Below are positions 31,720 to 38,569 of a stretch of 38,805 nt of DNA, in pieces (the stretch's first letter is position 1; the number at the start of each line of letters is the position of its first letter). Position numbers and translations under genes: made by a program. Source of the DNA: Pseudomonadota bacterium (GTDB lineage: Bacteria > Pseudomonadota > Gammaproteobacteria > Burkholderiales > Burkholderiaceae_D); NCBI GenBank assembly GCA_021821365.1, contig JAKACN010000016.1, positions 1 to 38,805 on the forward strand. The letters run 5' to 3'. The notes under the pieces are model-generated. The model saw only the letters and a list, made by a program, of their open reading frames with translations. It was not told the origin of the DNA and ran no database searches.

Positions 31720-31865
31720 CGGCGTGCGGCCGGGGAATGCATTGGCAAGGCGCGTGCAAACGAATAGAGCGGACATGGCATCTGGTGTGACGTTAGCGAA
31801 TGGCGGTTTGGCGAATTATTCGATTGGCATGGCGTCGCCACGGCGGAAAGAAAGAGTGTGACGGC

Positions 31866-32636
31866 TCACGAGTGTCTCCGAAGCCGGGAAATCAACTCGT
31901 CGAGCAACTGCACCATGCCGAGACGATGATGCAGGAAGAAATCGGCACAGGTGCCGGTCGCCGGCTCCACGCGTACGGTGACCAGATCCCTGCGCCGCAA
32001 GCGGAACACATCTTCATCGGTAACGTCGTCGCCGACGTACAACGCACCAGCGGCTCCGCAGTCTTCCATCAGGCGGTTCACGGCAGCGCCCTTGTCCATG
32101 CCGGCGGCCGGCAGCAAATTGAACACGCATTTGCCTCCGACCAGATGCGGTGCCGGCGTCAATCGCTCGATCAGGGTCGCCAGTTGCGACTCGACATATT
32201 CGCGATCGCGCGCCAACCGGTAGTGCACCGACAGCGAACAGCCTTTATTCTCGATCCTCACCCCGGAACTGGCGAGGCCGTGCCGTTGCAGCATGGCATG
32301 AAGGCTCTTTTCCCATTCCGCGCACAGCAAGGGAAAATGCGCGTCGAAGACGCAGCCGGGGACGCCCTCCAGGCCGTGGTTCCCGACGACATAGGATGGA
32401 GCAAATCCCAGCCTCGCCTGCACGTCGGCGACCGCCCGGCCGGTCACCACGGCGATCGAAGCGTAGCTGGAGAGAATGTCCAGCCGCCGTGCAACGGCCG
32501 CCGGCATGTAGACCAGGCCGGGATCGACTTCGATCGGAGCCAGCGTGCCGTCGAAGTCGAACGCGCACAGCATTCCGGGCCTTGCCACGTCATCGAGCCT
32601 GGCGGCGGCACAATCAAAGAATGGCAAGGGCGCCAT
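31866..32636 (-). CDS. otsB: Trehalose-6-phosphate phosphatase
   Basis: LCAFDFDGTLAPIEVDPGLVYMPAAVARRLDILSSYASIAVVTGRAVADVQARLG...VGNHGLEG...YVGDDVTDEDVFR: HAD-IIB, OtsB family. Confidence 0.95.
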   Translation of the reverse strand: MAPLPFFDCAAARLDDVARPGMLCAFDFDGTLAPIEVDPGLVYMPAAVARRLDILSSYASIAVVTGRAVADVQARLGFAPSYVVGNHGLEGVPGCVFDAHFPLLCAEWEKSLHAMLQRHGLASSGVRIENKGCSLSVHYRLARDREYVESQLATLIERLTPAPHLVGGKCVFNLLPAAGMDKGAAVNRLMEDCGAAGALYVGDDVTDEDVFRLRRRDLVTVRVEPATGTCADFFLHHRLGMVQLLDELISRLRRHS

Positions 32637-32639
32637 CTA

Positions 32640-34895
32640 TTACACCACCCGACGCAAGGACGCACGACTATGCGAGCGGATCTTGGTCATTACGCGCTCG
32701 CGCTGGCGAAGGCGTGCTGCATCCAGCAGCATGCGTCCGGCCCATCGGTATACGTTGAAATCCTTCACCAGGGACCGCATGCTCCGCATCCGTTCCCGTT
32801 GCTCGTCGGCCGGCATGGTCAGGGCGCGATACAGGGCATCTGCACCCTGCTCGATGTGATACGGGTTGACGATGAGCGCCTCGTGCAATTCGCGCGCCGC
32901 GCCGGTGAACTGGCTCAGTATCAGGACACCGCGCTCATCGTCGCGGGCTGCCACGAACTCCTTGGCCACGAGGTTCATCCCGTCATGCAGGCTGCTCACG
33001 ACGCAGACGTCGGCGGCACGATAATAGCGCTGCAACTGGTCCTGGTCATGGTGCTCCGCCTTGAGCAGGATCGGCTGGTAGTTGCCGTTCGAAAAACGCT
33101 GGTTAATGCGCTGCACGAGGCCGCGCACGCGCGCTTCGAAGTTCTGGTACTCATCCAGCGACGAACGGCTCGGCGCGGCAATCTGCACGAAGGTGAACCG
33201 CCCGATCATCTTCGGATGCAGCTCCAGCATTCTCTCCACGGCCTGCAACCGCTCGATGATGCCCTTGGTGTAATCCATGCGATCGACACCGACGCCGAGC
33301 AGGTGCCCTTCACCAAGGCCGAGTTCGTGGCGAACATCCGCGTGGAGCGTGGCAGTGCTGCCAATGCCGGATGCGTTCGCCTCCGGCCACGCGATCGAAA
33401 TCGGATAGTGCTCGACCTGCGTCAGTTTTCCGCCATAGGAAATGGTCGAAGCTTCGCCCTCGATGCGGGTTTCCAGGTAGCGGTCGACGGTCTCGATGAA
33501 GTTCTTGCGATGGAACGGCGTGTGGAATCCGAGGATGGTGCTGCCCAGCAGGCCTTCAAGCAGCTCTTCGCGCCACGGGCAGATGCCGAACGACTCGGGA
33601 TTCGGCCATGGGATGTGCCAGAAGGTGATGATGGTTGCCCTGGGCAAGGCTTCGCGCACCATGCGCGGCAGCAGCGCGAAATGATAGTCCTGCACCAGGA
33701 TGACCGGATCGTCGGTGCGCGCCTCGGCGATCACCGCATCGGCAAAGCGCCGGTTGACGGCGACGTAGCGATCCCAGTCGGACGAACGGAATACCGGCCT
33801 CACATGGGCGATATGGCAAAGCGGCCACAGTCCTTCGTTGGAAAAGCCATAGTAATAGCCCTGCTCTTCATCCTTCGACAGCCAGACGCGGCGCAAGGTG
33901 TAGCTCGGATTCGACGGCGGTACCTGCACCCGGTTCTGGCGGTCGACGGTCTGCCGGTCGCCCGACCCGCTGCCATGCGCGATCCAGGTGCCCGAGCATG
34001 CGCGCATGACCGCCTCGACCGCCGTAACCAGGCCGCTCGCCGGACGCCGCACTTCGATGCCGTTGGGCGTCGCCTCATGGATGTAGGGCTCGCGATTGGA
34101 AACCACCAGCACTTCGTCGCCCGCGAGTTCGTTGCGCAGCAGGGAGCGTAGCGTATCGGGCGTCCAGGTCGACGACATGTCGTCGCGCCCTCTTCGCTCG
34201 ACGTTGAGGTCGCGCAGGAGCGAGCGCAAATCGCCGATCACAGGCTGGATCTCCGGAAGCGCCGGCGCCTGCAGCGGCTGAAGGATGTCGCCGCGCAGGA
34301 CATCGCGCAGCGACTGCACCCACCCGCGCAGGCTGGCATGAGCGATGAATACGGTGATGAAGGAGATCACCACCGCCAGCAGCGCAAAAAGGCTGATGAC
34401 GTATTTCTTGGTGTCCGCGCTGCGCTTCTCGATGAAGCTCACGTCATGCACCAGGATCAGCTTTCCGACCTCCTTGCCATCCTGCAGCATCGGGCTTGCC
34501 GCCACGTGCAGGGAGCCTTGAGGCATCGAAACCAGCGACTCGGCCTCCCCCTTTTTCTGCGGTGTATGCCAGCAGCCGAGAGCGTCCGGATAGGTTTTCG
34601 TCTTGTAGAGCAGCTTTCCCGCCGTGTCGCAGAAGGCTAGTGCGTACAGGCGTTCGTCCTGGATGGCGCGATCGAAAAGCTGGTTGATCTTCCTGCGTTC
34701 CTTTTGCTGGACATAGTCGAGCAGCGGCTCTTCGAGCGCGCCGGCGAGGAACCGGGAACGGATATCCAGGTCCCTGACGAACCAGCGCAGAGTCAGATTG
34801 TCCATCATCGGGACGACGGCATACGCGAAAACGCCAAGCACCAGGGCAAGCGGCAGCACAAAACGCAGGGAGAGACGGACGGAACGCAACTTCAT
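32640..34895 (-). CDS. otsA: GT20-family trehalose-6-phosphate synthase with N-terminal TM/extracytoplasmic/TM/HAMP-like extension
   Basis: GT20 core from about residue 258: [12 protein letters not shown]...[13 protein letters not shown]...[17 protein letters not shown]...[23 protein letters not shown]...[18 protein letters not shown]...[25 protein letters not shown]. Start at 34895 favoured (AAGGA Shine-Dalgarno 6 nt upstream); alternative ATG 34913. Confidence 0.9.
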
Positions 34896-34909: not shown

Positions 34910-36016
34910 TCATGCCTTCGAAGCGCGGATGAGACCGGGCTGGGGGAGTCCTTCCGGTGCCATCGCATATCGCGCGGGAGCGCGAACCAGGTGCAAGGTG
35001 CGCGTCGGATAGGCAATGGATATGTCCAGCTCCCTCAGTTGTTCCAGAAGGTCGAGGTTGATTCGCTGCTGGATGTCCATGTAGTGGTTGTAGTCGGGCG
35101 TGAGTACGTAGTACACGACTTCGAACTGGAGCGCACTGTCGCCGTACGCCTTGAAGTGCGCGCGGTCGAAGCGTGTTTCGGCGCCGAGGCTTTCGACGAT
35201 CTTCCGGACGAGATCCGGGATGCGGCGCACATCGTCGAGCGCGGTTTCGTAGGCGATTCCGAATTCGAACTGCACGCGGCGCTCCTGCATGCGCTTGTAG
35301 TTGCGGATCCGGTTTTTCAGCAATTCGGTATTGGAAAAGACGATCTGCTCGCCGCCAAGGCTGCGAATGCGCGTGGTCTTGAGACCGACGTATTCGACGG
35401 TCCCGAGATAGTCGTCGACGACGATGAAATCGCCGATCACGAACGGTTTGTCCAGTGCGATCGACACCGACGAAAACACATCGCCGAGGATGTTCTGTAC
35501 CGCCAGCGCCACCGCGATGCCGCCGATGCCGAGGCTTGCCATCAGCGTCGTGATGTTGAATCCCAGGTTATCCAGTGCCAGGAGCGCCGCGAGCGACCAC
35601 AGAACGATGCGGGCGATCAGCCCGACCACCATCAGGTGCGTCGCTCCCGAGGGATCATGCTCGCGATGCCGTTCGAACGCGCGTTTCACCGCGACGACCA
35701 CCATACGGTTGCCCCACAGCGCAAGCTGCGTCATCAGCACCACCACCCATGCGTGGTGAACAAGCTTTTCGTGCGATGGCGACAGATCGACTTCGCTGAG
35801 CACGATCAACAGCGAAAGCGCGATGACGAACGGCAGGCGCGTTGCATTCAGCAACTGCTCCGGGTAGTCGAGCACGTGCAGCAGTTCGTTCTTTGCCGCA
35901 AGCCGATGCAGTTGGCGGGCAAGGAAGGATTTCAGCAGAAGCAGCGCGATGAAGACCGTGGCGAATCCGCCGCTTGTCCACATCAATTCATAGGCAGAGA
36001 TATCAGGTGCAATCAT
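34910..36016 (-). CDS. MscS-family mechanosensitive ion channel
   Basis: ...NLGFNITTLMASLGIGGIAVALAVQNILGDVFSSVSIALDKPFVIGDFIVVDDYLGTVEYVGLKTTRIRSLGGEQIVFSNTELLKNRIRNYKRMQERRVQFEFGIAYET: MscS pore helix and beta domain, YnaI-like. Confidence 0.95.
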   Translation of the reverse strand: MIAPDISAYELMWTSGGFATVFIALLLLKSFLARQLHRLAAKNELLHVLDYPEQLLNATRLPFVIALSLLIVLSEVDLSPSHEKLVHHAWVVVLMTQLALWGNRMVVVAVKRAFERHREHDPSGATHLMVVGLIARIVLWSLAALLALDNLGFNITTLMASLGIGGIAVALAVQNILGDVFSSVSIALDKPFVIGDFIVVDDYLGTVEYVGLKTTRIRSLGGEQIVFSNTELLKNRIRNYKRMQERRVQFEFGIAYETALDDVRRIPDLVRKIVESLGAETRFDRAHFKAYGDSALQFEVVYYVLTPDYNHYMDIQQRINLDLLEQLRELDISIAYPTRTLHLVRAPARYAMAPEGLPQPGLIRASKA

Positions 36017-36164: not shown

Positions 36165-36279
36165 TCATCGGGCATTGCCCGGAATGAACAGGTGCCATAT
36201 TGCACCACGACACTTAGGGGAAACTTAACCCCCGGAAAAACGGTGGAGGAGCAACACAGCCGTCCTAAGTTTCACCTAA
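36165..36279. promoter_or_regulatory. Dyad-rich intergenic regulatory region between the mscS-type gene and the M48-like lipoprotein gene
   Basis: CGGGCA-T-TGCCCG (36169-36181, outer TCAT/ATGA); GGTGC-CATATT-GCACC (36191-36206); TTAGGGGAAACTTA (36214-36227) and inverted TAAGTTTCACCTAA (36266-36279). Confidence 0.5.
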
Positions 36280-36305
36280 TTTTTCGGGTGCATGCTTCCT
36301 TCATC

Positions 36306-37490
36306 ATGAACACGACACTGCGATTTCCCGATCTGCCCTGCGTGATGCGTCACATGCTGTGCGCAGGAGGCGCAGCAATGCTGGCGGCTATCCTCTCGTC
36401 CTGCGGTACGGTGCCTGTTGCCGCGCCCATCGCCGAGCCCCCGCTCGCAACTTCGTCAGTTGCGGTGACGGACGCGCCGCATATACCGGCGTCACCCCCG
36501 TCCGTCGATCATGCCGGGGTCTCGTCGCAGCCTTCCATGGCGCCACCGGCACCATCGGATGCTGACAAGGCAGCGGCATTGCGTGCATGGGTCCGGGAGC
36601 AGCGGCGAATTTATCGGGTAGCGGCGCCCTTGCTGATCAACAATGCGGAATTTTGCCCCCAGCACGCCCGGCAGGTTCTCGGGTTTACAGCGAAGAACAT
36701 GTATTCCTACTCCGATGCGTTCATCGACATCGCCAGGTCCGCGCTTGGATTGGGCGAGGACTTGCAGATCATGGACGTCCTGCCGGGGAGCGGCGCGGAG
36801 CAGGTCGGATTGCGCGAGGGCGACGTGCTTCTGGCCGTCGAGATCGAACCGATGCCCAAGGGGGCGGAGGCGGAGCGCGAGGCAGCCGAGTTGATCGGTT
36901 CGGAGATGCGTGGGCGGACGAGCCTGCGCATGGGGATACGGCGCGACGGGCAGCACATCAGAATCGACGTGCCGCTGACATCGACGTGCGCCATGGCAAT
37001 GGATCTGGGAAATGCAATGGAACCGCTTGGCTTTGCCGATGGCCAGCGGGTAATGATTACGCGTGGCATGCTCGATTTCGTGCAATCCGATCAAGAGCTC
37101 GCCTACGTTCTGGCCAGGGAAATGGCTCGCAATGAAACCATGACGGAGGGAAGTGTGGAAATGCGCGACATTATCGATCGCCTCCATTCTCTTGACGCCA
37201 GCACCCTATCCGGCGACGTTCCGGATGCGCTCAACGGCGCTATGCAATCCTATGCGAAGGACATGGATTCCGATACCGGCAGGCTGGCGCTCAAGATGCT
37301 CGCGCGCGCCGGCTACGATATCGCGGACTATCAGGCATTCTGGCAGCGGCTTGCGACGCGACTGGCGGACGGAATCAACACCGGTGCACCGGCCGTCGCG
37401 CGGCCCGAAACCGTTCGGCTTTCCGCGCTCGATCGGGCGGCAAGGGGCACTACGCCGGGTGCAGCAGGAGAACTTCCGCATGCACAATGA
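36306..37490 (+). CDS. M48-like lipoprotein with embedded PDZ-like domain and degenerate zinc site (predicted inactive)
   Basis: Lipobox (ILSSCGT); PDZ-like IMDVLPGSGAEQVGLREGDVLLAVEI; M48-like context DQELAYVLAREMARNE and SDTGRLALKMLARAGYDIADYQAFWQRL. Confidence 0.75.
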   Translation: MNTTLRFPDLPCVMRHMLCAGGAAMLAAILSSCGTVPVAAPIAEPPLATSSVAVTDAPHIPASPPSVDHAGVSSQPSMAPPAPSDADKAAALRAWVREQRRIYRVAAPLLINNAEFCPQHARQVLGFTAKNMYSYSDAFIDIARSALGLGEDLQIMDVLPGSGAEQVGLREGDVLLAVEIEPMPKGAEAEREAAELIGSEMRGRTSLRMGIRRDGQHIRIDVPLTSTCAMAMDLGNAMEPLGFADGQRVMITRGMLDFVQSDQELAYVLAREMARNETMTEGSVEMRDIIDRLHSLDASTLSGDVPDALNGAMQSYAKDMDSDTGRLALKMLARAGYDIADYQAFWQRLATRLADGINTGAPAVARPETVRLSALDRAARGTTPGAAGELPHAQ

Positions 37491-37646
37491 CCCGCATGGA
37501 TCTTTCCTCATGCTTTGAGGGCAATCACGTTGAGTGAAACCGGTTTCCGCCGCATGTTATGGTCGCTTCGCCCCGCACTTCATGGTCAAGGGGCCACTCC
37601 TGCCTGCCACCCATTATCGTCCAGCCGTGAGCACTAAGAGGAAATG

Positions 37647-38036
37647 ATGAATCGGGAAGAAATACCCGATGAGGTAAAGCGATTCATTCTGATCAGCATC
37701 CCCTCGGTTCCCTACCTGGAGGCTATCCTGTTGCTGCGCAGGGAGAGAGACCGCGGCTGGACCGCCGGCGAGCTTGCACAAAGGCTATACGTGAGCGCAA
37801 AGGTTGCCGCCGAGGTGTTGTCCGGTTCCGCGGCTGCGGGAATCGCGGCGATCGAAGACACCTCGGCGCTCGTGTATCGCTATCAGCCGGCCTCTGCCGG
37901 CCTGGAGCAAATGATCGACCGGTTGGCGGCGATCTATGCGAAGAACCTGATCGACGTAACCAATCTGATCCACTCGAAAACGAGCAAGAGCGCGCAGCAA
38001 TTTGCCGACGCGTTCATCTGGCGAAAGGATGGATGA
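37647..38036 (+). CDS. Uncharacterised protein, winged-helix-like
   Basis: MNREEIPDEVKRFILISIPSVPYLEAILLLRRERDRGWTAGELAQRLYVSAKVAAEVLSGSAAAGIAAIEDTSALVYRYQPA...: HTH-like helices (GWTAGELAQRLYVSAKVAAEVL). First ATG at 37644 is also possible. Confidence 0.7.
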   Translation: MNREEIPDEVKRFILISIPSVPYLEAILLLRRERDRGWTAGELAQRLYVSAKVAAEVLSGSAAAGIAAIEDTSALVYRYQPASAGLEQMIDRLAAIYAKNLIDVTNLIHSKTSKSAQQFADAFIWRKDG

Positions 38037-38037
38037 C

Positions 38038-38295
38038 ATGGCAGCACTGATCTATGCCCTGTGCGCGTTGACTGCGCTGACGTGCGCCTTTTTGCTGCTG
38101 CGCGGCTACACCAGGCTAAAGTCCGGCATGCTGCTCTGGAGCGGCATTTGTTTCGCCGGTTTGGCGGCCAATAACTTTCTGCTCGTATTGGATCGGATCT
38201 TCCTGCCCGGGACGGATCTGCTGACCATACGACTTTTCACGGCACTGATCGCACTGCTGCCCTTGCTTTACGGGTTGATATGGACAGACGAGTGA
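38038..38295 (+). CDS. Small membrane protein, DUF5985-like
   Basis: MAALIYALCALTALTCAFLLLRGYTRLKSGMLLWSGICFAGLAANNFLLVLDRIFLPGTDLLTIRLFTALIALLPLLYGLIWTDE: three hydrophobic segments; family call from memory. Confidence 0.75.
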   Translation: MAALIYALCALTALTCAFLLLRGYTRLKSGMLLWSGICFAGLAANNFLLVLDRIFLPGTDLLTIRLFTALIALLPLLYGLIWTDE

Positions 38296-38302
38296 GGCTG
38301 CC

Positions 38303-38569
38303 ATGAATCAAATGCTGGTCGGCGCGATTGCCATGGCTTCCCTGGTTGTCAGCCTCGTCTTCCTTCGTTTCTGGAGAAGCACGGGCGACCGCTTTTTCCT
38401 TTACTTCGCCCTGTCGTTTTTCCTGCAGGCGTTCGGCCGCGTGGTGCTGGGCAGCTCCGCGATACAGGATGAGGATACGCCGTTGTTCTACTTGATCAGG
38501 CTGGTGGCGTATGGCCTGATCCTGCTTGCCATCATTCAGAAAAACAGCGGATCGAGCAAAGACAACTGA
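38303..38569 (+). CDS. Small membrane protein, DUF5985-like
   Basis: MNQMLVGAIAMASLVVSLVFLRFWRSTGDRFFLYFALSFFLQAFGRVVLGSSAIQDEDTPLFYLIRLVAYGLILLAIIQKNSGSSKDN. Confidence 0.75.
   Translation: MNQMLVGAIAMASLVVSLVFLRFWRSTGDRFFLYFALSFFLQAFGRVVLGSSAIQDEDTPLFYLIRLVAYGLILLAIIQKNSGSSKDN

Follow-up and report, generated by a model that had tools for sequence, protein, structure and literature searches.

A membrane-anchored subfamily of predicted trehalose-6-phosphate synthases carrying a sensor-type N-terminal module

Osmoprotectant synthesis is usually seen as being under the control of transcription and cytoplasmic effectors. The described OtsA/Tps1 enzymes of Escherichia coli, Mycobacterium thermoresistibile and Candida albicans are soluble; soluble OtsA is regulated at its oligomer interfaces in mycobacteria and forms dimers or tetramers, varying with the species (PMC6879718). 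OtsA of Arthrobacter A3 is reported to be an osmotic stress sensor, a tie to osmotic conditions that may extend to the protein described here, but it acts via trehalose-6-phosphate (T6P) depletion and OtsA self-assembly, and the part of that paper drawn on here reports no transmembrane sensor (PMC5685639). A 2024 review of alpha-glucan enzymes covers OtsA, and the word 'transmembrane' is absent from the portion of its text examined (PMC11046441). No paper on an anchored OtsA, a GT20-HAMP protein or an otsA-mechanosensitive channel association was found in a search of an open-access library, and the subfamily appears to be unstudied, although priority is uncertain.

The window (the whole 38,805-nucleotide stretch of DNA analysed) encodes an OtsA that has the GT-B fold and catalytic motifs in common with the soluble enzymes and, like soluble bacterial OtsA, is partnered by otsB. 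Unlike the solved OtsA/Tps1 chains, which have no membrane or sensor module, it is anchored in the membrane, and its core is only ~36% identical to the closest of them and belongs to a separate clade.

Architecture of the anchored OtsA

The otsA reading frame is intact and its stop codon ends at 32640 (Table 1). Its start ATG at 34895 is preceded by the ribosome-binding-like AAAAGGA, and a second ATG in the same frame (34913) overlaps the mscS stop codon. A preliminary description had placed an extension of about 257 residues before the GT20 domain (34125-34895, exactly residues 1-257), and this was borne out: approximately 260 residues, made up of a transmembrane (TM) helix, an extracytoplasmic domain of ~125 residues, a second TM helix and a HAMP-like linker, precede a Pfam GT20 match (PF00982) that starts at residue 261 and spans model positions 2-470 of 473 (E 2.4e-121). 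A chance or artefactual open reading frame was rejected as an explanation for the extension, the same domain layout being conserved across many genomes. An open frame of 783 codons lies antisense to otsA-otsB (window 31800-34151, plus strand) and most likely results merely from high-GC codon usage.

Table 1. Features of the anchored otsA locus and of its sensor-less relatives (window positions unless loci are named)
Feature	Position	Strand	Basis
Membrane-anchored OtsA (GT20), 751 aa	32640..34895	-	ORF; RBS before ATG 34895; Pfam GT20
TM1, ~residues 12-31, preceded by positively charged N-terminus	34803..34862	-	Hydropathy; modelled helix 3-63
PDC/Cache-type extracytoplasmic sensor domain, residues 32-158	34422..34802	-	AlphaFold; Foldseek (WalK, CitA, CusS); conservation
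Cys89 codon, invariant column	34629..34631	-	Conservation
Cys108 codon, nearly invariant (98%)	34572..34574	-	Conservation
TM2, ~residues 165-186	34338..34403	-	Hydropathy; modelled helix 153-200
HAMP-like linker, residues 187-240	34176..34337	-	In-register profile alignments; helix-connector-helix in models; no Pfam HAMP
GT20 catalytic core, residues 261-735	32691..34115	-	Pfam; Foldseek to OtsA structures; motifs aligned and invariant in family
otsB, trehalose-6-phosphate phosphatase, 3 nt past otsA	31866..32636	-	TIGR00685 above cut-off; spacing
MscS-type mechanosensitive channel gene, directly upstream of otsA	34910..36016	-	Pfam MS_channel domains; recurrent linkage
Single-TM sensor-less relatives	L067-L070, L265		Family f91; same phylum, other class

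Both of the hydrophobic helices proposed earlier are present, with Kyte-Doolittle window scores of 2.33 for TM1 and 2.94 for TM2. As there are two TM helices, the N-terminus and the core should lie on the same side of the membrane, and since the core depends on substrates and a partner found in the cytoplasm, the domain between the helices would be periplasmic. An AlphaFold model of the extension, built with 18 homologues, contains helices at residues 3-63, 67-78 (short), 153-200 and 217-239 and five strands within 83-151, i.e. the long N-terminal helix, short helix and beta sheet running into TM2 of a PDC/Cache-type fold. The pLDDT, taken in steps of ten residues, lies mostly between 80 and 91 over the extracytoplasmic part, the loop at ~111-120 excepted, and the folded periplasmic domain on which the preliminary description depended is thus found in the model. 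Foldseek comparison of this domain with the PDB gave matches at probability 1.00 to a WalK model (E 6e-8), the WalK sensor domain (3e-4), CitA (1e-3) and CusS (1.7e-3), with LuxQ and the LapD orthologue CdgS9 also among the matches.

Sequence comparison likewise identifies membrane sensor histidine kinases as the nearest non-GT20 relatives of the extension. TIGR01386, the model of CzcS/SilS/CopS kinases, matches the window extension over residues 5-215 and 9 of 18 extensions overall (best E 3.4e-6, far below its full-length cut-off), and the N-termini of CzcS-type kinases from related genomes align collinearly over residues 3-236 in hhalign (P 3.7e-4). In Pfam, the window protein matches no Cache, CHASE or sensor family; among 41 members, weak CHASE4 matches occur in four (best E 0.0013) and a CusS domain in one (E 0.081). 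Searching PDB sequences with a profile of the extension returned nothing meaningful. Weak Pfam matches to LPD1, TssR_M and Adeno_E3B were rejected as chance or hydrophobic. In the sensor domain of the 41 sequences W38, D42, R46, C89, P103 and R158 are invariant and C108 is 98% conserved; a C89-C108 disulfide in the periplasmic domain is plausible. The length of the domain is kept (gap fraction 0.005), and the layout persists among two-TM relatives whose extensions are as little as 31% identical. The extension is well supported as a folded, membrane-anchored module of the sensor type.

PF00672 (HAMP) matched none of 18 extensions and none of 41 full-length members. The linker aligns in register with 29 HAMP domains encoded in its own genome, at a probability of only 4.6% (P 0.009), through a glycine-acid pair past the first helix, at the end of AS1, and an acidic residue ahead of AS2, and the AlphaFold models place a helix-connector-helix after TM2. 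A search for distant relatives also drew in membrane histidine kinases whose HAMP is recognised by Pfam, one of which aligns over the last part of the sensor domain, TM2 and HAMP with a pairwise BLASTP E of 1e-8, a value that overstates significance because these kinases were picked from ~400 genomes searched; a fairer measure is provided by hhalign, in which the extension and the HAMP-bearing kinase score 37.7 and 30 reversed or block-shuffled controls reach at most 26.3. The full-length AlphaFold model has its lowest confidence in the linker (pLDDT 40-50) and therefore does not predict the geometry of any coupling. Because the Pfam Cache and HAMP models do not match, the terms 'Cache/PAS-like' and 'HAMP-like' rest on structure and profile comparison and not on a family match; in that sense both earlier assignments are supported.

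Foldseek aligns the core with OtsA structures at E 2e-41 and with a TM-score of 0.90 to 5jio (normalised by target), its catalytic motifs can be matched position by position to the solved M. thermoresistibile OtsA, and R268, D403, H427, R539, K544, R577, D638 and E646 are invariant in 41 members. By homology, the protein is a trehalose-6-phosphate synthase predicted to make T6P from NDP-glucose and glucose-6-phosphate, for which the adjacent otsB gives indirect support.

A distinct subfamily and its gene neighbourhood

The extension occurs in 21 of 300 genomes of the order, GT20 proteins above cut-off being found in 46, and three further strong two-TM matches were obtained in a sample of the phylum. 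A scan of GTDB genomes yielded at least 561 relatives, 80 of which were retrieved; these came from Oxalobacteraceae, Geobacter-like, Syntrophus/Smithella-like and other genomes, including four metagenome-assembled genomes (MAGs) with other labels: one Spirochaetia, one Verrucomicrobia and two Acidobacteria. The Acidobacteria labels, and possibly those of the other two, may be binning errors. Beta-, alpha- and deltaproteobacteria are all represented in the clade, along with the MAGs of other phyla. The nearest named relatives of the window protein are in the Oxalobacteraceae, e.g. Noviherbaspirillum, Herbaspirillum and Massilia, which makes a burkholderialean from this group the probable source.

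Core profile scores fall into two ranges that do not overlap, 783-955 bits for the anchored GT20s and 233-338 bits for the rest, and the contrast with soluble OtsA drawn in the preliminary description extends to the whole family: N-terminal TM helices are present in every examined member of the anchored set with an intact N-terminus and in none of 49 other GT20s. In a tree of 144 proteins the 95 anchored proteins form one clade with a support of 100 on a branch of 2.14 changes per site. Nested within it is a subclade (support 99) of five proteins that keep the linker and the core, the latter ~58% identical, but have a single hydrophobic helix and no sensor domain; as members of another class of the same phylum they appear to be alphaproteobacterial, and the domain may have been lost from them or never gained. 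The window genome encodes a second anchored OtsA, 76% identical and with its own OtsB (G000:C160; L066:7669-9972, minus strand), and two anchored copies are also found in each of Keguizhuia sedimenti, Noviherbaspirillum malthae and N. aerium. Anchored OtsA is a distinct and large subfamily and not a one-off; both this status and the anatomy given above are close to certain. The subfamily, the second genomic copy and the mscS-otsA-otsB cluster were all missed by the preliminary description.

Anchored otsA is followed immediately by otsB in 92 of the 98 loci with room to tell, and the window otsB product passes the T6P phosphatase cut-off (TIGR00685). From their spacing, mscS, otsA and otsB look like one transcription unit; a promoter scan of the cluster returned no more sites than expected by chance. 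Three other Oxalobacteraceae loci (L100, L111 and L122) also have an MscS gene directly upstream, 66-68% identical to that of the window, and a different MscS (46-48%) is found downstream of otsB in three loci of a Smithella/Syntrophaceae-type clade (L158, L161 and L174). The linkage of otsA and MscS therefore recurs in two lineages, in a minority of loci, and the second link looks independent. Antisense matches to mscS in Janthinobacterium loci were weak (21-25% identity) and were taken as spurious.

Several other neighbours were recorded. The gene order in L158, L161 and L174 is anchored otsA, otsB, a small protein that by eye resembles universal stress proteins, and MscS. Judged by inspection of N-terminal sequences, a GH15-type hydrolase lookalike sits beside otsA or otsB in several loci. 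In the window, a putative lipoprotein with a sub-threshold PDZ match (36192-37490, plus strand) is divergent from the mscS-otsA-otsB cluster, followed by a small uncharacterised protein with no Pfam match (37644-38036, plus strand) and two adjacent small membrane proteins, both DUF5985 (38002-38295 and 38303-38569, plus strand). A small protein similar in appearance to the uncharacterised one adjoins the mscS-otsA-otsB cluster of N. aerium (L122:9146-9571).

Proposed working and alternative explanations

The window protein is probably a T6P synthase of an anchored GT20 subfamily in which an input module of the sensor-kinase type controls the cytoplasmic core. A broader proposal, for which the case is evenly balanced, is that its members are widespread transmembrane sensor-glycosyltransferases, in which an extracytoplasmic signal directly gates a biosynthetic enzyme of primary metabolism, T6P synthase, without a kinase, a second messenger or a transcription step; the sensor-less single-TM relatives would then be constitutive counterparts. 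In the working proposed for the window protein, OtsA would be a dimer or higher oligomer, the periplasmic domain would answer to a ligand or to the envelope or osmotic state, and a change in the PDC domain, relayed by TM2 and the HAMP-like helices, would determine how active the core is; there, UDP-glucose and glucose-6-phosphate would be converted to T6P, which the co-encoded OtsB would turn into trehalose. Coupling through oligomer geometry is reasonable because soluble OtsA is regulated at its oligomer interfaces in mycobacteria and differs in oligomeric state between species, and the link to MscS channels makes osmotic or envelope stress the first candidate cue.

The extension could instead be an anchor only, an inner-membrane tether (e.g. 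beside MscS or OtsB) whose periplasmic domain is a non-signalling inherited spacer. This is rather unlikely, although the alphaproteobacterial relatives, which share the linker and have a single TM helix but lack a sensor domain, speak for it, as does the lack of a Pfam HAMP match in the linker; as the subclade keeps its anchor without a sensor, anchoring alone probably has a role, and a simple anchor retains some probability. The PDC domain is also more variable than the core, mean pairwise identity across the 41 sequences being 0.44 for the sensor domain, 0.43 for the linker and 0.70 for the core, but ligand-sensing domains usually vary faster than a catalytic core. Moreover, the length of the sensor domain and its six invariant residues are kept in the aligned two-TM members, and the domain matches sensor domains specifically, all of which argues against a mere tether.

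Two further explanations concern the output. The sensor may be real and its output mainly signalling, the anchored enzyme setting local T6P or a partner (OtsB or MscS) and not the bulk osmolyte, which is improbable: in Arthrobacter A3, cell morphology is reported to be controlled by OtsA and T6P without the involvement of trehalose (PMC5685639), and the two anchored paralogues of the window genome, each with its own otsB, would suit a signalling role, but the co-encoding of OtsB almost everywhere suggests flux to trehalose and no conserved signalling partner was seen in the neighbourhoods read. Slightly less probable still is a core product other than T6P, such as glucosylglycerol phosphate or another phosphorylated glucoside. 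The core falls below the curated cut-offs of the OtsA equivalog TIGR02400 (424.6 vs 564.85) and the OtsA-OtsB fusion NF011071 (489 vs 634), so that annotation rules do not fix its exact donor and acceptor, and the long branch that sets off the anchored clade is consistent with a change of product. Against this, the OtsA model scores well above that of GgpS (TIGR02398, 302.5 bits and itself below cut-off), the neighbouring phosphatase passes its T6P cut-off, and the catalytic motifs align with those of solved OtsA.

If the sensor-gated synthase is real, it would constitute a one-protein, post-translational connection between the cell envelope and osmolyte synthesis, and would account for any rapid adjustment of trehalose by many Burkholderiales, Geobacter-like and Smithella-like bacteria. 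Furthermore, the coexistence of sensor-bearing, sensor-less and soluble forms makes the idea directly testable by domain swaps.

Relationship to sensor kinases and sensor cyclases

The closest parallels to the N-terminal half of the protein are sensor histidine kinases such as WalK, CusS/CopS and CitA, together with HAMP-bearing kinases that have a LapD/MoxY-like sensor, all of which share the collinear TM1-PDC-TM2-HAMP(-like) module; they differ in having a kinase as output, whereas that of anchored OtsA is a glycosyltransferase, joined by a linker that fails the Pfam HAMP model. By analogy, direct gating of catalysis by an extracytoplasmic signal, as the preliminary description had proposed, is likely. 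In this respect anchored OtsA is likely akin to sensor diguanylate cyclases and LapD-type receptors, in which an extracytoplasmic sensor is joined straight to a cytoplasmic catalytic or output domain, although sensor diguanylate cyclases make a dedicated second messenger and the predicted product of anchored OtsA is a metabolic intermediate.
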